DNA from: Plantactinospora sp. BC1
Lineage (GTDB): Bacteria > Actinomycetota > Actinomycetes > Mycobacteriales > Micromonosporaceae
Assembly (NCBI RefSeq): GCF_003030345.1
Contig: NZ_CP028158.1
Location: 4,092,001-4,156,000 of the forward strand
DNA length: 64,000 nucleotides
Reading direction: 5' to 3'
Shown here: piece by piece, positions 48,871 to 58,725 of the stretch
Layout: each line of letters opens with the position of its first letter
Numbering within the stretch: the stretch's first letter is position 1
The notes under the pieces: generated by a model
The model's input: only the letters and a program-made list of their open reading frames with translations
The model's database searches: none
Told to the model about the DNA's origin: nothing
Position numbers and translations under genes: made by a program

Positions 48871-49662
48871 TCAGCGCCGCTTCAGGCAGAGTACGAAGTC
48901 GCCCAGGTCCAGCGGATCGTCCTGTACGTAGTTGGCGTCCGCCTCCGGCGAGCCGAAGACCGGGTCGTTCTTGCACTGGTCCGCGTCGGTGCTGAACGGG
49001 ATCCGGGACAGCACCTCGTAGGTGTCCGGTCCACACGGCACCTTGCGGAGTTCCGGCTCGTCGTCGGTGCCGTCGTTGACCACGCAGTCTCCCTTGGCGA
49101 ACCGCTCCGACGAACTCGACGGGGTGCCGGCGGGACGGCTCGGGGTCGACCCGGCCGAACCGCTCGGGGCGGGTGCCCCGACGCCCGGCCCGGAGTCGTC
49201 GCCGGCCCGGTCGACCAGCCACCACGCCCCGCCGCCCACACAGGCGCAGAGCAGCAGCAACACGATGCCGCCGACGATGAGGCCGATCTTCAGCCCACGA
49301 CCGGACTTCGGCGGGGCGCCGGCCGGACCGTACGGCGCGGCCGGCCCGCCGGGAGCGCCGTACGGGGTACCCGCCGGGTACGGCCCGCCGCTCGACGGCG
49401 GCTGACCCCACGAAGGACCCGGTGCGCCGCTCGGCTGCCCATGCCCGGCGCCGACGGGCGGCGGGTAACCGGACGGCGGGTAACCGGGAGTCGGTGGCGG
49501 CGGCGGGTAACCGGCGTCCGGGGCCGGCGGATAGCCGGGACCCGGCGGCGGAGTGCCCGGCGGCGGAGGCGGATCGCCACCGGCCGGCGGGCCCGACGAG
49601 GGGGACCGGGACTGGTACGGGTCTTCCGGCTGCCCTCCGGCAGGCGTTCCGTAAATCGACAT
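48871..49662 (-). CDS. LppU/SCO3897-like membrane protein 1
   Basis: 263 residues from ATG 49662 with GGAGAAG upstream. Residues 1-125 are Pro/Gly/Tyr-rich (GYPPPPPTPGYPPSGYPPP), cytoplasmic and disordered. One membrane helix (IGLIVGGIVLLLLCACVGGGAWWL) leads to a Ser/Pro linker and an external domain of about 80 residues with four cysteines (KGDCVVNDG, KVPCGPDTYEVL, DQCKNDP, DFVLCLKRR), the LppU pattern. Function is unknown. The next gene upstream on the strand is a paralogue. Confidence 0.82.
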   Translation of the reverse strand: MSIYGTPAGGQPEDPYQSRSPSSGPPAGGDPPPPPGTPPPGPGYPPAPDAGYPPPPPTPGYPPSGYPPPVGAGHGQPSGAPGPSWGQPPSSGGPYPAGTPYGAPGGPAAPYGPAGAPPKSGRGLKIGLIVGGIVLLLLCACVGGGAWWLVDRAGDDSGPGVGAPAPSGSAGSTPSRPAGTPSSSSERFAKGDCVVNDGTDDEPELRKVPCGPDTYEVLSRIPFSTDADQCKNDPVFGSPEADANYVQDDPLDLGDFVLCLKRR

Positions 49663-49813
49663 GCTTCTCCAGGGGCGGGCGCGCGCGCCGACCACGTCAC
49701 GGAAACCCTGGGGTGGCTGACGCAGGGGTCGGGCTGGGCGCGGATCCTACGCGGCAGGTCGCTCGGACCTCCGCCGGTCTCGTCGGAATGCCGGGCGGCG
49801 ACACTCCGCGCGG

Positions 49814-50719
49814 CTATCGTTTCCGAAGACAGAGCACGAAGTCCAGTTCGTCCAGCTCGCTGTTGAAGAAGTAGAAGTTCGTGTAGTTCTGCACCTGGGC
49901 GCATTTGGTCTTAGCGTCCGGGGCGCCGGTGGTGACGCCGTTGTAGCGGGCGAGCACCTCGTAGGTCTGCGGTGCACAGCCCGTGATCGCCAGCTTCGGC
50001 GCCGCCTCCGTACCCTCGTTCCGGACGCACTGACCGGCCTTGACGAACCGCGCATCAGTGGAGGACGCGTCCGGCGCAGCCGGGACGCTGGTCGGGGTCG
50101 GCTCGGTCGGGGCGCTGGTCTGCTCGGCCGGCTCCTCGGTCTGCTCGGTGACCGGCGGCTGGGCGTCCGGCTGTGCCTCGTCACGGCCGAGCAGGTAGAC
50201 GCCGAGCGCCGCACCGCCGAGGACCAGCACCGCCAACCCGACCAGGACGGCGACGAAGCCCCGGTTGCCACCACCCTTCGGCATCGGGTCCGGTGCCGAG
50301 GTGGACCACGACGGGTCCGGAGACGGCGTCGCCCACACCGGATCGGCGTCGGAGGCGTTCCAGCCGCCCGGCGCCGGGGCGTACGGCGCGCCGGGGTGCT
50401 GCGGTGCCGGGGCGTGGCCGGCGTCGTGTCGCCGGGTCGGTGGATGACCGGCACCGGGTGCACCCGAGGTCGGCGCGGCGCCGGGGCCGGCCGGCCCGGG
50501 GTAACCGGCCGGATAGCCGGGGTGGCTGACCGGGGAACCGGGGCCACCCGGTGGCGCCGACGGCTGCCCGCCACCCCAGTGCCCCGCCCCGGCCGCCTGG
50601 TCCTGATCGCCCCAGGGGTCGACCGGCTGGCCGTACTCGTCGGTGGTCTGCCGGTCCGGGTCGTTCCACGGCTGCGACGGACCGGGATACGGTCCGCCGG
50701 GCGGTCCGTAGTTGGCCAT
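49814..50719 (-). CDS. LppU/SCO3897-like membrane protein 2
   Basis: 301 residues. Same architecture as its neighbour: disordered Pro/Gly/Ala-rich N-terminus (1-160), one membrane helix (GFVAVLVGLAVLVLGGAALGVYLLG), a Thr/Glu/Pro linker, and a C-terminal domain with cysteines in AGQCVRNEG, ITGCAPQTYEVLARY, KTKCAQVQN and DFVLCLRKR. The external domains of the two proteins clearly align while the N-termini do not, so they arose by duplication. Role unknown. Confidence 0.82.
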   Translation of the reverse strand: MANYGPPGGPYPGPSQPWNDPDRQTTDEYGQPVDPWGDQDQAAGAGHWGGGQPSAPPGGPGSPVSHPGYPAGYPGPAGPGAAPTSGAPGAGHPPTRRHDAGHAPAPQHPGAPYAPAPGGWNASDADPVWATPSPDPSWSTSAPDPMPKGGGNRGFVAVLVGLAVLVLGGAALGVYLLGRDEAQPDAQPPVTEQTEEPAEQTSAPTEPTPTSVPAAPDASSTDARFVKAGQCVRNEGTEAAPKLAITGCAPQTYEVLARYNGVTTGAPDAKTKCAQVQNYTNFYFFNSELDELDFVLCLRKR

Positions 50720-52738: not shown

Positions 52739-55700
52739 TCAGAGCAGCCGGAGCTGGCGGTCCTTCGGGCGACGGGGCACGTTGTCGCCGAGCCGTTCGA
52801 AGAGTCCGGCGTCGATCGCGTCGAGGAACGGCGACGGGACGCAGTCCCGCTCCTGGCCGTGCCGCAGCCGCCGGCTCACGTGACTGAGGTAGAGCCGGTC
52901 CTGTGCCCGGGTCAGCCCGACGAAGAAGAGCCGGCGCTCCTCCGCCACCTCCTCCTCGGTCGGCGTCGAGCCGGGCCAGCGCAGCGGCAGCAGCCCGTCC
53001 TCGCAGCCGGGCAGGAAGACCACCGGGAACTCCAGCCCCTTGGCGGCGTGCAGGGTGAGCAGGGTGACCGCCTCGGCGCGCGGGTCGAGGGCGTCCACCT
53101 CGGCACCGGTGCCGAGTTGCGACAGGAACAGCTCCAGGTCGTCGCCGCAGCGCCGGGCGAGCGGGGTGAGCAGGTCGGCCGCCGTCCAGATGTCGTCCGG
53201 GCCGATCCCGCCGGTGGCGTCCAGGGTGGGGGTGGCGTGCCGCTCGGCGAGTACCTGCCCGGCGAGGCGTACCCGGGCGGCGACCGAGCCGCCGAGCCCG
53301 TCGGCGTGCCGCAGCTCGCGGGCGATCACCGAGACGCCGGGCCGGTCCCGCAGCCGGTTGTGCGAGCGCTTCTGCACCGGGATGTTCGCCCGGGCCAGCG
53401 CGTCCAGGATCGGCGCCGCCTGGGCGTCGGTGCGGTACAGCACCGCGATGTCGGAGAACGAGACGTCGGTGTTCCGGCCGTCGATCCGGCCGGAGTCGAG
53501 CGAGCGGTGCGACAGCCCGCCGACGAGTTCGTCGACGGTGCGTACCACGAAATCGGCCTCGTCGGCGACGGAGGCCGCCGGATAGCGGCCGACCAGCGGT
53601 GCCTCCGGGTCGAGCCGGGCCGGGTCGAGCCGCCGGCCCCGGACCAGCGTGCTCGGCGCGATCGCCTGCACGGCGGCGGCGAGGATCGGCGCCGACGAGC
53701 GGTAGTTGCGGGTCAGCCGGACCAGCCGGGCGTCCACGAAGTCCTGCGAGAAGCGCAGGAAGTAGGCCACGTCGGCGCCCCGGAACGAGTAGATCGCCTG
53801 GTCGGGGTCGCCGATCGCGCAGAGGTTGCCGTCGGCCGGGCTGAGCAGCCGGAGCAGCTCGTACTGCGTCGCGTCGACGTCCTGGTACTCGTCGACGAAG
53901 ATCCACCGCCACCGGTCCCGGTAGCGTTCGACCAGCTCCGGGTCGTCGCGCAGCAGCGCCACCGGCAGGCCGACCAGCTCGTCCAGGTCGACGAGGTCCT
54001 GGCCGCGCAGCAGTTTGACGTAGGTGGCGTCGTCGTCGCCGGCCTCGGCCCGCGCGGTCGCCCGCTCGGTGTCGTCGGCGATCCGGAAGTTCTCCGGCAG
54101 CCCGGCGGCCCGGGCGTTCTCCCGCAGGATGGTCAGGCCGAGCGAGTGGAAGGTGCCGACGGTGACGTCCTCGGCGACCGGCCCGAGCAGCCCGTCCAGC
54201 CGGTGCCGCAGCTCCTCGGCGGCCCGCCGGGTGAAGGTGATCGCCAGGCAGTGTTCCGGATAGACGTTCAGCTCGGCGCAGAGGTAGGCGATCCGGTGGG
54301 TGAGGGTGCGGGTCTTGCCGGTGCCGGGGCCGGCGACGATCAGCAGCGGCCCGCCGGGTGCGGAGGCGGCGACCCGCTGCATCGCGTCGAGCCGGTCGAG
54401 CAGCCCGGTGCCGACCTCCTCCATGCCGGCGAGCATCGGCTCGAACGGCTCGTGCGGCGACGGCGGCGGGGCGAGCGGCGGTGCGGGTTCGGCCGGCGGG
54501 GCGGCGGCCCGGGTCCGGCGGCGCGGCTCCGCCGGGGTGGCCGGCGTCGGGGCCGTCGACCGGGCGGGCCGGGCCGGCGCCTTCGGCTCCGCGGGCGGTC
54601 GCTGTCGCGGCACGGGTACGTCGAAGAGCGCGTCAGCGAAGAGCGTCTCCGCCTGCCCGGCGCCGCCCCGGCCACCACCGCCGGAGCCGGACGACAGTTC
54701 ACCGGGCTCGAAGAGAGTGATCACGCCGTACTCGCCGTCGTAGCCGGGGATCCGGCGCACCTCGCCGCGCCGGAGTCGGGTGATCGCCTCGGCGAGCGGT
54801 TCGCCGCCGACCCGGCGGATCTCGTCGACCGGCGTGACGGTGAGGATGTCCAGCTCGGCACCGAGCCCGGCGACCAGGGTGTTGAGCTGCCCCTCCACCG
54901 TCTTCGACTTCGGCCCCACACTGTTGATCTCACCGAGGATCTCAGCGAGCTGGATCAGGTGGGTGACCTGCGGCGCGTTCGCCGGCCGGTGCCCGTCCGG
55001 CCGGTCGGCGAGGTCCTCGACCCGGCTCAGTACGCCGACCGTGAGCGGCTTGCCGCACTCCGGGCAGCGCCCGCCCGCCTCCCGGGTCCGCTGCGGTTCC
55101 CAGTTGACCCCGCAGAGCCGGTGCCCGTCCGCGTGGTACTTCCCCTCCTCGGGGAAGAACTCGATCGTCCCGGCCAGCCCGTCCCCGGTACGCAGCGCTT
55201 CGCGTACCGCGTAGTAGTCGAGGTCGGTGGCGAAGAGCGTCGCCTCCCGGGCCAGCGCGGGCGGCGAGTGCGCGTCCGAGTTAGAGACCAGCCGGTAACG
55301 GTCCAGGCTGGACACCCGCCAGTTCATCTCCGGGTCGGAGGAGAGCCCGGTCTCGACCGCGAAGATGTGCTCGGCGAGGTCGGCGTAGCAGTCCGCGATC
55401 GCGTCGAAGCCGGACTTCGAGCCGAGCGCGGAGAACCACGGCGTCCAGATGTGCGCCGGCACGAGGTAGCCGTCCGGGCTGGCCTCCAGGGTGATTTCCA
55501 GCAGGTCCCGGGAGTCCAGACCGAGGATCGGCCGCCCGTCGGAGCCGATGTTGCCGATCCGGCCGAGCGTGGCGTTGAACCGGGCCACCGCGTCCAGGTC
55601 GGGCAGGTAGATCAGGTGGTGCACCTTGCGGGTCCGGTCGTCCCGCTTGTAGATGGTGGAGATCTCGACGCTGAGCATGTAGCGCATCGGACTCGCCTCG

Positions 55701-56020
55701 GCGACGCTGGCCAGCCGGGGTGGGAGCCGACGGGCGATGTCCCGTTCCGCCTCCGGGCTGAGCCGATAGAGGCCCGGCTCGGCCGGGTGCAGCGTCTCGC
55801 GCAGGTGCTCGTACCAGGCGGGGTGGGTGAAGTCACCGGTGCCGAGCAGGCTGATCCCCTTGCGCCGGGCCCACCAGGCGAGATTCGGCATCGTCAGGTC
55901 ACGGCTGCACGCGCGGGAGTATTTCGAGTGGATGTGCAGGTCCGCGACGAAGGGCACGGCGGCGGAGGGGGAGCCGTCAGCGGGTGCGGCGCGCAACGGA
56001 GACACGCCGCATCCTGTCAT
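52739..56020 (-). CDS. Fusion of EndoQ-like PHP nuclease and UvrD/PcrA helicase
   Basis: 1093 residues from ATG 56020. The N-terminal part (about 20-440) is a PHP phosphoesterase of the EndoQ type: metal residues in DLHIHSKYS (Asp27, His29, His31), GTGDFTHP, VEIST, HHLIYLP, PAHIWTPWFSALGSKSGF and SNSDAHSP, then a zinc finger (Cys in LCGVNW, CPEC). A Pro/Ala linker follows (about 440-530). The rest is a superfamily 1 helicase: GPGTGKTRTLTHR, DEYQDVDATQ, GDPDQAIYSFRGA, TRNYRS, LTLHAAKGLEF and FVGLTRAQDRL. EndoQ nicks DNA 5' to deaminated bases; a joined helicase could displace the cut strand. The activity of the fusion is inference. Confidence 0.9.
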   Translation of the reverse strand: MTGCGVSPLRAAPADGSPSAAVPFVADLHIHSKYSRACSRDLTMPNLAWWARRKGISLLGTGDFTHPAWYEHLRETLHPAEPGLYRLSPEAERDIARRLPPRLASVAEASPMRYMLSVEISTIYKRDDRTRKVHHLIYLPDLDAVARFNATLGRIGNIGSDGRPILGLDSRDLLEITLEASPDGYLVPAHIWTPWFSALGSKSGFDAIADCYADLAEHIFAVETGLSSDPEMNWRVSSLDRYRLVSNSDAHSPPALAREATLFATDLDYYAVREALRTGDGLAGTIEFFPEEGKYHADGHRLCGVNWEPQRTREAGGRCPECGKPLTVGVLSRVEDLADRPDGHRPANAPQVTHLIQLAEILGEINSVGPKSKTVEGQLNTLVAGLGAELDILTVTPVDEIRRVGGEPLAEAITRLRRGEVRRIPGYDGEYGVITLFEPGELSSGSGGGGRGGAGQAETLFADALFDVPVPRQRPPAEPKAPARPARSTAPTPATPAEPRRRTRAAAPPAEPAPPLAPPPSPHEPFEPMLAGMEEVGTGLLDRLDAMQRVAASAPGGPLLIVAGPGTGKTRTLTHRIAYLCAELNVYPEHCLAITFTRRAAEELRHRLDGLLGPVAEDVTVGTFHSLGLTILRENARAAGLPENFRIADDTERATARAEAGDDDATYVKLLRGQDLVDLDELVGLPVALLRDDPELVERYRDRWRWIFVDEYQDVDATQYELLRLLSPADGNLCAIGDPDQAIYSFRGADVAYFLRFSQDFVDARLVRLTRNYRSSAPILAAAVQAIAPSTLVRGRRLDPARLDPEAPLVGRYPAASVADEADFVVRTVDELVGGLSHRSLDSGRIDGRNTDVSFSDIAVLYRTDAQAAPILDALARANIPVQKRSHNRLRDRPGVSVIARELRHADGLGGSVAARVRLAGQVLAERHATPTLDATGGIGPDDIWTAADLLTPLARRCGDDLELFLSQLGTGAEVDALDPRAEAVTLLTLHAAKGLEFPVVFLPGCEDGLLPLRWPGSTPTEEEVAEERRLFFVGLTRAQDRLYLSHVSRRLRHGQERDCVPSPFLDAIDAGLFERLGDNVPRRPKDRQLRLL

Positions 56021-56085
56021 GACCTTCCCGGCGACCGCGTGCCGCCACGCGCGAATGTGATTTCCGCACCCGCCGGGGTGTGGGG

Positions 56086-57381
56086 TCAGGGGGAGCGGAG
56101 TTCGACGAGGGTGACCTGCGGTGGGGCGCCCACCCGGACGGGTGGGCCCCAGAAGCCGGCGCCGTTGGTGACGTAGAGCTGGGTGCCGTCGATGGTGGCG
56201 TGCCCGGAGACGACCGGCTGCTGCAACCCGACCACCAGGTTGAACGGCACGATCTGGCCGCCGTGGGTGTGCCCGGAGAGTTGCAGGTCGACGCCGTGTC
56301 TCGCCGCCTCGTGCACGTTGATCGGCTGGTGGGCGAGGAGCACCACCGGACGGCTCGGGTCGCGGCCGCCCAGCGCGGCGTCGAAGTCGGGGCCGGTCGC
56401 GAACCCGAGCCCCTCACCGGCCGGGTCGTTGACCCCGGCGAGGTCGAGGGCGCCGCCCCGGGCGAGGATCTCCTCGCGGCGGTTCTGCAACACCCGCAGC
56501 CCGATCCGGTCCAGCTCGACCACCCACTCCTCGACCCCGGAGTAGTACTCGTGGTTGCCGGTGACGAAGAAGCTGCCGTACCGGGACCGCAGGTCGCGCA
56601 GGGGCGCGGCGGCGGGGCCGAGTTCGCCGACGGTACCGTCGACGAGGTCACCGACCACCGCCACCAGGTCGGCGTCGAGCCGGTTGATGGTGGCCACGAT
56701 CCGCTCGGTGTGCGCCCGGCCGGTCAGTGGTCCGATGTGGATGTCGGAGACGGTGGCGATCCGCAGCCCGTCCATGCTCCGGGGGAGTTTCGCCAGCGGG
56801 ATCCGGACCCGGTCGATCTGCGGCGGGCCGAGGGCGGTGCGGACGCCGTACCCGACGACTCCGGTCGCGGTGAGCCCGGCGAAGATCGCGGCGCTCCGGG
56901 CGAGCAGCAGCCGGCGGCCCGGGTCGTGGTCGGGCGCGGGTGCGGGTGCGGGTGCGGGCGTGGCTCCGATGTCCGTGCCGGCGACACCGCCGGGTGCGAC
57001 GTCCGTGCCGCCGACACCGCCGGTCAGGGCGCCCTCCGACTCGACACCGACCGGGGTGGCCGCCGGTACGACCGCCCGGATGCGGCGGCGCAGCGCCAGC
57101 CTGGCCACCAGCATCGGGATCTCCAGCACGGCCAGCAGGACGAGCAGATAGAACATGACGGCGAGCCAGAGGTAGCCCGGCCAGGCCAGCCAGTAGAAGC
57201 CCTGCCGGGTGCCGACCAGTGTCGCCGGGGTGAGCAGGGCCAGCACCAGCACGGTCACGCCGCCGGCCCGGCGCCAGCGCCCCGGCCGGGTGGTGTCCCG
57301 GACCAGCCGCTTCCAGAGGTAGAGGTGGATCAGGCCGGTGACCAGCGCCAACGTCCCGACGAAGCCGAGCACACCGATCAC
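56086..57381 (-). CDS. Membrane metallophosphoesterase, YaeI-like
   Basis: 431 residues from GTG 57381, seven bases after moaD, with GAGG upstream. Five to six membrane helices occupy about 1-195 with an Ala/Pro/Asp linker (PAPAPAPAPDHDPGRR). The phosphoesterase domain runs from about 230: SDIHIGPL (first metal Asp/His), VVGDLVDG, TGNHEYYSG, LLAHQP and LSGHTHGGQIVPFN complete the metallophosphatase set. Similar proteins cleave UDP-diacylglucosamine or lipid phosphates, but the substrate is not known here. It is the last gene of the moaA-moaD run. Confidence 0.92.
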   Translation of the reverse strand: MIGVLGFVGTLALVTGLIHLYLWKRLVRDTTRPGRWRRAGGVTVLVLALLTPATLVGTRQGFYWLAWPGYLWLAVMFYLLVLLAVLEIPMLVARLALRRRIRAVVPAATPVGVESEGALTGGVGGTDVAPGGVAGTDIGATPAPAPAPAPDHDPGRRLLLARSAAIFAGLTATGVVGYGVRTALGPPQIDRVRIPLAKLPRSMDGLRIATVSDIHIGPLTGRAHTERIVATINRLDADLVAVVGDLVDGTVGELGPAAAPLRDLRSRYGSFFVTGNHEYYSGVEEWVVELDRIGLRVLQNRREEILARGGALDLAGVNDPAGEGLGFATGPDFDAALGGRDPSRPVVLLAHQPINVHEAARHGVDLQLSGHTHGGQIVPFNLVVGLQQPVVSGHATIDGTQLYVTNGAGFWGPPVRVGAPPQVTLVELRSP

Positions 57382-57388
57382 GGGTGCC

Positions 57389-57652
57389 TCAGCCGCCGGC
57401 GAACGGCGGCAGGACGTCGACCGTGGCGCCGACCGGCAGCGGCGCCTGCCGGTCGTGCCAGGTGACGCCATCGACCAGGAAACTCGCCATCTTGAGCACG
57501 GTGGCCAGCCGCTCGCCGTGCCGGTCGACCAGCTCACCGGCGAGCTGGTCGAGGCTGCCGCCGCCCGGCACGGTCTCCTCGGGTACGCCGGCCGCGGCCC
57601 GCGCGGCGGCGAAGTAGCGTACGACCAGGGTCGGTGTGGAGTCCACGGTCAT
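57389..57652 (-). CDS. moaD: Molybdopterin synthase sulfur carrier subunit (MoaD)
   Basis: 87 residues from ATG 57652; the open frame extends upstream into moaA and is not used. Ubiquitin-like fold (TLVVRYFAAARAAAG, VDGVTWHDRQAPL, GATVDVLPPFAGG) ending in the Gly-Gly tail that carries thiocarboxylate to MoaE. Placed two bases after the moaA stop, so co-translated. Its partner moaE lies 13 kb away in the other cluster. Confidence 0.95.
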   Translation of the reverse strand: MTVDSTPTLVVRYFAAARAAAGVPEETVPGGGSLDQLAGELVDRHGERLATVLKMASFLVDGVTWHDRQAPLPVGATVDVLPPFAGG

Positions 57653-57654
57653 CC

Positions 57655-58725
57655 TCAGCCGCCGATCGCCGACATCGGCCGGGCCGGTTGCAGGAACGTC
57701 GGGTCGTCGATGCCGTGCCCGGCCCGCTTGCCCCACATCGCCACCCGCCACCGTTCGGCGAGTTCGTCGTCGGAGGCACCGCCGCGCAGCGCGGCCCGCA
57801 GGTCGGACTCGTCGGTGGCGAAGAGGCAGTTGCGCACCTGCCCGTCGGCGGTGAGCCGGGTCCGGTCGCAGTCGCCGCAGAACGGCCGGGTCACGCTGCC
57901 GATCACGCCCACCCGGGCCGGTCGGCCGGTGGCGTCCGTCCAGCCCTGCACGAGCCAGGTCTCGGCCGGTGCCCCGCCCCGCTCGGCCGGATCCGGCAGC
58001 AGGGTGAACTCGGCCCGCAGCGCGGCGAGGATCTCCTCGGCGGTGATCATCGTCGACCGGTCCCAGCCGTGCTGGGCGTCCAGCGGCATCTGCTCGATGA
58101 AGCGGAGCTGATAGCCGTGCCGCAGCGCGAAGCGGAGCAGCTCCGGGGCTTCACCGTCGTTGACCCCGCGCATCAGTACCGAGTTGATTTTCACCGGGGC
58201 CAGTCCGGCGGCAACCGCCCCGGCCAGCCCGGCCAGTACGGCGTCCAGCCGGGGTCGCCGGGTCAGCTCGGTGAAGCGGGTCGGGTCGAGGCTGTCCAGC
58301 GAGACGTTCACCCGGTCGAGCCCGGCCTCGCGCAGCGGCCCGGCGAGCCGGTCCAGCCCGATCCCGTTGGTGGTCAGCGAGATGACGGGCCGGGGCGAGA
58401 GCGCGGCGACGGCGGCGACGATCTCCGGCAGCCCGGGGCGGATCAGCGGCTCGCCGCCGGTGAACCGGACCTCGGTCACCCCGAGCAGGCGTACCGCGAT
58501 GCCGACCAGGCGGACGATCTCGTCGTCGGTCAGCACCTCCGACTTCGGCAGCCAGGGCAGCCCTTCGGCCGGCATGCAGTAGGTGCACCGCAGGTTGCAC
58601 CGGTCGGTGAGCGAGACCCGCAGGTCGGTCGCCGCCCGGCCGAACCGGTCGACGAGGCCCCCGACGTCCGGCCGGTCCGCCGACGTCCGGTCCGGTACTC
58701 CCCCGGATCGAACGGGAATGGTCAT
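57655..58725 (-). CDS. moaA: GTP 3',8-cyclase (MoaA)
   Basis: 356 residues. Radical SAM enzyme with the first [4Fe-4S] motif CNLRCTYC (Cys43, Cys47, Cys50), the SAM region FTGGEPL, and the second cluster in the C-terminal domain (CGDCDRTRLTADGQVRNC, about residues 283, 286 and 300). The C-terminal GG tail needed for MoaC-coupled activity is present (SAIGG). It converts GTP to 3',8-cyclo-dihydro-GTP, the first step of Moco synthesis. Start MTIPVRSGGVPDR at 58725. It heads moaA-moaD-metallophosphoesterase. Confidence 0.97.
   Translation of the reverse strand: MTIPVRSGGVPDRTSADRPDVGGLVDRFGRAATDLRVSLTDRCNLRCTYCMPAEGLPWLPKSEVLTDDEIVRLVGIAVRLLGVTEVRFTGGEPLIRPGLPEIVAAVAALSPRPVISLTTNGIGLDRLAGPLREAGLDRVNVSLDSLDPTRFTELTRRPRLDAVLAGLAGAVAAGLAPVKINSVLMRGVNDGEAPELLRFALRHGYQLRFIEQMPLDAQHGWDRSTMITAEEILAALRAEFTLLPDPAERGGAPAETWLVQGWTDATGRPARVGVIGSVTRPFCGDCDRTRLTADGQVRNCLFATDESDLRAALRGGASDDELAERWRVAMWGKRAGHGIDDPTFLQPARPMSAIGG

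Follow-up and report, generated by a model that had tools for sequence, protein, structure and literature searches.

An EndoQ nuclease fused to a UvrD-type helicase with a clamp-type C-terminal tail in Plantactinospora sp. BC1 and other bacteria

Endonuclease Q (EndoQ) is represented by PfuEndoQ, TkoEndoQ and the enzymes of Methanosarcina and Bacillus, which, in the accessible sections of the papers cited here, are stand-alone proteins with separate later steps. One published repair scheme provides strand displacement by a polymerase, or helicase removal after cuts by EndoQ and EndoV (PMC4357722); another draws a helicase, FEN1, a polymerase and a ligase (PMC8438529). The archaeal enzyme binds PCNA and is stimulated by it only with its C-terminal PIP box, and clamp-type C-termini of bacterial EndoQ homologues were already noted in the same paper (PMC4858679). 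We describe here a gene in a window of 64,000 nucleotides of Plantactinospora sp. BC1 (contig NZ_CP028158.1, positions 4,092,001 to 4,156,000) whose 1093-residue product shares with EndoQ the whole 400-residue domain, the metal and pocket residues, the zinc site and a probable clamp link through a C-terminal peptide. Unlike the described EndoQs, it continues into a helicase and then a clamp-type motif (Table 1).

SF1A helicases such as PcrA, UvrD and UvrD2 travel 3' to 5' along single-stranded DNA. The fusion has all of their ATPase and translocation motifs; it differs from PcrA in its shorter 1B and 2B subdomains, and from the PcrA and UvrD2 of its own genome in its N-terminal nuclease and clamp-type tail. 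Gabija GajB and AddAB/RecBCD/AdnAB likewise pair a UvrD-type helicase with a nuclease, but these are other nucleases with ends-based or defence roles and have no EndoQ domain. EndoMS/NucS of Archaea and Actinobacteria is also a lesion-directed nuclease with a C-terminal LF-type clamp motif, which activates it (PMC8228993); its nuclease fold is unrelated to that of the fusion, it cuts both DNA strands at mismatches, and it carries no helicase.

Architecture and catalytic positions

The EndoQ domain matches EndoQ by fold and by sequence in a comparison with the PDB, including the complex with dU-DNA. EndoQ is the top-ranked fold match of the predicted structure of the whole protein, the match list being otherwise filled by helicase chains, and no polymerase PHP chain occurs among the PDB sequence and profile matches at E up to 1. 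The initial annotation had named an EndoQ-type nuclease fused to a helicase, with a PHP domain of the EndoQ rather than the polymerase type; the fusion is a real observation, and the sequence bears out the assignment. The whole fusion protein has a single match in its own 8.33-Mb, one-contig genome.

A scan of named genome contigs yielded at least 591 confirmed relatives, of which the best 80 were kept (the 80 loci). For alignment A2, truncated and near-duplicate loci were excluded by hand, and 44 of these loci were aligned with the window protein (45 rows, the 45 fusions below). The metal, pocket and zinc positions of EndoQ are invariant in all 45 fusions, H29 excepted. In PfuEndoQ, E76 is a Zn ligand with H84 and H139, and G169 and S171 together with H139 exclude T and A from the pocket (PMC8307549). 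The counterparts of all five are listed in Table 1. The equivalent of D193-A194-H195 is a PHP metal motif. An earlier claim of a complete metal set and zinc finger holds for the metal positions; the zinc site does present four potential ligands and CPECG, but its first ligand is His, so that the site is HCCC and not literally four cysteines. This form differs from that of the described EndoQs and is common to four bacterial stand-alone copies (L171-L174). In two alphaproteobacterial fusions (L116 and L162), the HxH metal motif starts with Gln in place of His; every other metal position that was checked in them is intact.

The C-terminal half proved, as first annotated, to be a complete SF1 helicase. 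Walker A, Walker B and the other SF1A motifs are all present according to Pfam, the structure alignment and the family alignment, and the ATPase residues are invariant. The scores against the equivalog models fall below their cut-offs (PcrA, 366.7 vs 911.2; UvrD, 291.1 vs 1144.45; Rep, 287 vs 951.45). Compared with PcrA, the unaligned stretches have 13 residues against 59 (about 1B) and 59 against 132 (about 2B). Among the 45 fusions the 2B region has 53-93 residues and the 1B region 30-91, which makes the very short 1B of this protein a lineage trait. The helicase half aligns with the UvrD2 of its own genome in one block (33%) and with its PcrA in two. The linker between the two enzymes varies from 48 to 127 residues in the 45 fusions (A2 columns 442-540).

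The identity of the domains, the intact catalytic positions of both enzymes, the disordered linker and the clamp-type tail are established at the level of sequence or model. Antisense to the gene runs an open frame of 1105 residues (window 52859-56176, (+)), commonplace in GC-rich DNA.

Table 1. Features of the fusion gene and its upstream neighbour, in window coordinates
Feature	Residues	Coordinates	Strand	Remarks
Whole gene, EndoQ-UvrD fusion	1093 in all	52739..56020	(-)	
EndoQ domain: PHP, zinc and C-terminal helical parts	26-436	54713..55945	(-)	
HIH, PHP motif I	H29, H31	55928..55936	(-)	H31 invariant 45/45; H29 43/45
PfuEndoQ E76 equivalent, Zn ligand	E119	55664..55666	(-)	profile alignment; invariant 45/45
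PfuEndoQ H84 equivalent, Zn ligand	H134	55619..55621	(-)	invariant 45/45
PfuEndoQ H139 equivalent, Zn ligand and pocket gate	H190	55451..55453	(-)	invariant 45/45
PfuEndoQ G169-L170-S171 equivalent, base-pocket gate	G225-L226-S227	55340..55348	(-)	G225, S227 45/45
PfuEndoQ D193-A194-H195 equivalent	D249-A250-H251	55268..55276	(-)	D249, H251 45/45
Zinc site; PfuEndoQ C249, C252, C268, C271 equivalents	H300-x2-C303 ... C319-x2-C322	55055..55123	(-)	all four 45/45
Disordered linker	446-537	54410..54685	(-)	predicted local distance difference test (pLDDT) <50 along whole linker (predicted structure)
QAETLFADALFD, possible second clamp-like element	456-467	54620..54655	(-)	site where stand-alone EndoQs bear C-terminal motif
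UvrD/PcrA-type SF1A helicase, reduced 1B and 2B	539-1080	52781..54406	(-)	
Walker A, GPGTGKT		54308..54331	(-)	G566, G568, K569, T570 invariant in A2
Walker B / motif II, FVDEYQDVD		53873..53899	(-)	D710, E711, Q713, D714 invariant in A2
QLRLL, extreme C-terminus; candidate beta-sliding-clamp-binding motif	1089-1093	52742..52756	(-)	
Calcineurin-like phosphoesterase, upstream neighbour		56086..57537	(-)	adjoins fusion in 24/80 loci, all Micromonosporaceae

The C-terminal tail and the spread of the fusion

The bacterial clamp motif has been given the consensus C-terminal QL(S/D)LF, with further variability possible (PMC9690074), and the tail of the window protein belongs to this class in a looser form. 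Q1089 and L1092 are identical in all 45 fusions, which come from nine phylum-level groups; the last aligned residue is L in 20, F in 18, I in five, W in one and V in one, and tails in other phyla read QLSLF, QLDLF, QLELF, QLKLF and QMELF. A strict tail pattern, searched for within the final eight residues, is present at 64 of 72 usable loci (cut, frame-broken and stand-alone copies, eight of the 80, were set aside) and at 33 of the 34 usable loci in a second set of 39, which shares some genomes with the first. As controls, 19 of 12,800 shuffled tails carry the pattern, and so does one of 540 stop-ended flanking open reading frames, this one belonging to L137, where a frame break separates off the helicase end of a fusion. 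Neither PcrA nor UvrD2 of this genome has a clamp-type tail. The NucS of the genome ends in ELTLF, a type of ending reported as an actinobacterial clamp-binding motif (PMC8228993). Because the motif is so strongly conserved, the tail probably binds the DnaN clamp. A link between EndoQ and the clamp is already known; new is the placement of the clamp motif after a fused helicase, of which we found no published account. The initial annotation had overlooked both the C-terminal motif and the occurrence across many phyla.

Among the 80 loci, 72 have a frame of at least 930 residues that ends inside the contig, one is stand-alone and seven are frame-broken or cut by the contig end. By record titles and tree, the fusion occurs in Actinomycetota, Pseudomonadota, Acidobacteriota, Myxococcota, Planctomycetota, Elusimicrobiota, Melainabacteria, Binatota and Poribacteria, and judged from these sequences its overall layout is maintained across the nine groups. 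Many of the relatives are metagenome bins, so individual taxon placements may be wrong. Its frequency was followed in five taxon samples, namely the own order, the own phylum, and the phyla of a Pirellulaceae, an Endomicrobiellum and a Polyangium genome. EndoQ is present in 30 of 37 Micromonosporaceae genomes and in three of the 24 others of the order. The own phylum gave matches in nine of 396 genomes, two of them weak and short, which leaves seven convincing ones with our own included. For the other three phyla, a long frame was counted as a fusion, and beyond the known copies G473, G487, G483 and G463 only L179 was inspected; EndoQ was found in 17 of 119 genomes of the Pirellulaceae phylum (eight in frames >1000 residues), in 15 of 60 of the Endomicrobiellum phylum (eight in frames of at least 976 residues) and in eight of 112 of the Polyangium phylum (seven in frames >1000 residues).

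A maximum-likelihood tree of 59 EndoQ domains (50 fused, nine stand-alone) requires three changes between the fused and stand-alone labels. Shuffled labels require 8.6 on average, and none of 500 shuffles was as low as three. Judged from this tree, the fusion is old, not recent. A single phylum sample and one actinomycete supplied the stand-alone rows, without archaeal or Bacillus EndoQ; within this sampling the tree is compatible with one gain of the fusion and two losses of the helicase (L175 and L110). Depending on where the fused L179 falls relative to the stand-alone L171-L174 clade, a second gain or an extra loss may have occurred. L110, from Streptosporangium subroseum, is a stand-alone EndoQ of 454 residues amid fusions and ends in PPLF; a helicase-like frame was not found within its 12 kb, and its helicase was apparently lost secondarily. 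As for other endings, the nine apparent stand-alone EndoQ-type frames include four with QMKLF, QKELF, QMRMF or QMRLF, three with PPLF, GELF or ATLF, and two with neither kind. Within the Planctomycetota sample, L176, L177 and L178 form a divergent clade of stand-alone EndoQ-like proteins that carries DLHSHSG, SNSDCHS or SNSDGHS, and two of its three members end in ELF or TLF.

Proposed function and competing explanations

On balance, we read the fusion as a clamp-tethered enzyme of alternative excision repair. By homology, its EndoQ domain would flip a deaminated or abasic nucleotide into the pocket and cut the backbone 5' of the lesion, an activity that we consider likely in the fusion. The strand with the lesion would then have a 3'-OH and a 5'-phosphate at the cut. 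The disordered linker would allow the attached 3'-to-5' helicase to load at the nick. On the intact strand, the helicase would peel off the lesion strand, after which a polymerase would extend the 3'-OH and the flap would be cut and sealed; we are slightly inclined to see the motor as serving mainly for this displacement after the nick. Through QLRLL, perhaps aided by the LF motif of the linker, the protein would attach to the sliding clamp DnaN. It would then work at the fork or behind it, and the clamp may stimulate its nicking in the way that PCNA stimulates archaeal EndoQ. The initial annotation had envisaged damage-directed nicking combined with strand displacement, an idea that gains support by analogy, since published EndoQ models, in their accessible parts, already include such steps (PMC4357722, PMC8438529).

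Two further claims, that the polypeptide forms a stand-alone route of repair and that its value is tied to a GC-rich genome, found no support. Genes of the uracil-DNA glycosylase (UDG) superfamily are present in all 61 genomes examined (the own genome, with four matches, and relatives) and in 37 of 38 other EndoQ-bearing genomes picked by hand from the 80 loci; the remaining one is that of L096, whose EndoQ copy ends at the contig end before any helicase. EndoV is present in the own genome, and EndoV matches at E <1e-20 occur in 19 of 33 EndoQ-positive vs nine of 28 EndoQ-negative genomes, a comparison confounded by kinship. Since UDG is this general and genomes with EndoQ do not avoid EndoV, the idea that the fusion stands in for either enzyme was rejected. 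The GC content of the 80 loci (of the locus, not the genome) has a median of 70.5% and a minimum of 29.6%, with six loci under 50% and five at 30-40%; high GC was rejected as the reason for the fusion because such low-GC loci exist, and the claim of its value in GC-rich genomes also meets the count of seven convincing matches in the 396 genomes of the phylum.

The motor might instead work before the nick, with the helicase opening DNA or tracking along single strands at forks or gaps and feeding them to EndoQ, which would cut at uracil or hypoxanthine in the single strand. PfuEndoQ is efficient on both in single-stranded DNA (PMC11354406), a clamp tether suits work at the fork, and the short 2B and 1B suggest a motor that relies on another domain for its duplex contacts. 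EndoQ, however, flips the base out of duplex DNA, which makes prior unwinding unnecessary (PMC8307549), and we regard this order of events as unlikely. Somewhat less likely again is that EndoQ and a clamp-bound housekeeping helicase for fork restart or conflict removal are independent modules that are joined in one chain chiefly for the sake of recruitment and do not pass the lesion from one to the other. The variable length of the linker would suit such an arrangement, as would the two lineages that seemingly dropped the helicase and kept EndoQ, but the retention in many phyla of a fusion with both active sites intact points to coupling.

Several observations count against the clamp-tethered repair enzyme that we favour. 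The fusion scores 154.1 bits with the NCBIfam model TIGR00375 (a hypoth_equivalog model), whose curated cut-off of 326.6 is passed by no genome in the five taxon samples and by two of three matching control genomes. With its short 1B and 2B, the fusion may translocate instead of unwinding DNA alone, and with UDG and EndoV both present its loss might give no deamination phenotype. Eight of the 72 usable loci miss the strict tail pattern, ending at or near the C-terminus in QPKLI, QQRLF, QPRLL, QLSLL plus 12 residues, RRLFD, QLTLF plus nine, ETLFEL and QDSLF. A second clamp-like motif in the linker is possible but weakly indicated, by a loosely defined [LMI]F pattern that 69 of the 80 loci carry. 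No neighbour is conserved across phyla, clusters outside Micromonosporaceae comprising at most three of the 80 loci. Our literature search found no account of an EndoQ-helicase fusion or of its activity, though a subscription paper may mention one.

Surroundings of the gene and implications

The phosphoesterase gene next to the fusion is probably outside the system. Farther upstream lies a MoaA-type radical SAM gene (within window 56086-58725, (-)), found near the fusion in 13 of the 80 loci, all Micromonosporaceae. Neighbours were found by simple longest-frame gene calling, and some will have been missed. An operon partner was rejected beyond Micromonosporaceae for want of a recurring cluster. 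Two proline-rich frames lie side by side at window 48871-49695 and 49814-50719, (-), each with one apparent membrane segment; they share a similar Cys-bearing C-terminal end (TYEVL ... DFVLCL) and are probably tandem paralogues.

Searched with the EndoQ domain, the phage (E limit 1e-3) and plasmid (1e-5) collections gave no match, and an origin from phages or mobile elements was rejected on this ground. A full-length search of plasmids returned 1767 records, none reaching 80% query coverage, and the 30 rows listed cover the helicase half only; in PHROGs, phage DNA helicase families match the helicase half only. A Pfam scan of eight neighbouring proteins (one without any hit) gave no GajA-like family. 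A defence role, in which nicking and unwinding would destroy invading DNA that is foreign or modified, for instance phage genomes containing uracil, in parallel to Gabija, is improbable: PADLOC models of Gabija GajB do match the helicase part (best 1e-69) and Bacillus EndoQ may act in antiviral defence according to a review (PMC8307549, accessible part), but the PADLOC matches listed span the UvrD-type part only, the phosphoesterase, the MoaA-type gene and the other neighbours include no evident defence partner and form no cluster across phyla, the EndoQ domain is absent from the phage and plasmid matches, and the clamp-binding-type tail points to the host replisome.

We tentatively propose that the clamp-tethered fusion may represent a widespread, unrecognised repair system in which one polypeptide would recognise the lesion, incise the DNA, displace the strand and dock on the clamp. 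It would be an ancient fusion that reached at least nine phylum-level groups by inheritance or transfer, and would work beside glycosylase-started repair, probably at the replication fork. Bacterial EndoQ extends beyond a few genera, and the helicase fusion is one of its common forms in several phyla. Where the accessible parts of published schemes draw unnamed helicase or displacement steps, the fusion may bear on how an EndoQ nick is converted to finished repair; since nuclease, motor and clamp-type tail reside in one protein, the hand-off between them would be testable with a single purified enzyme.

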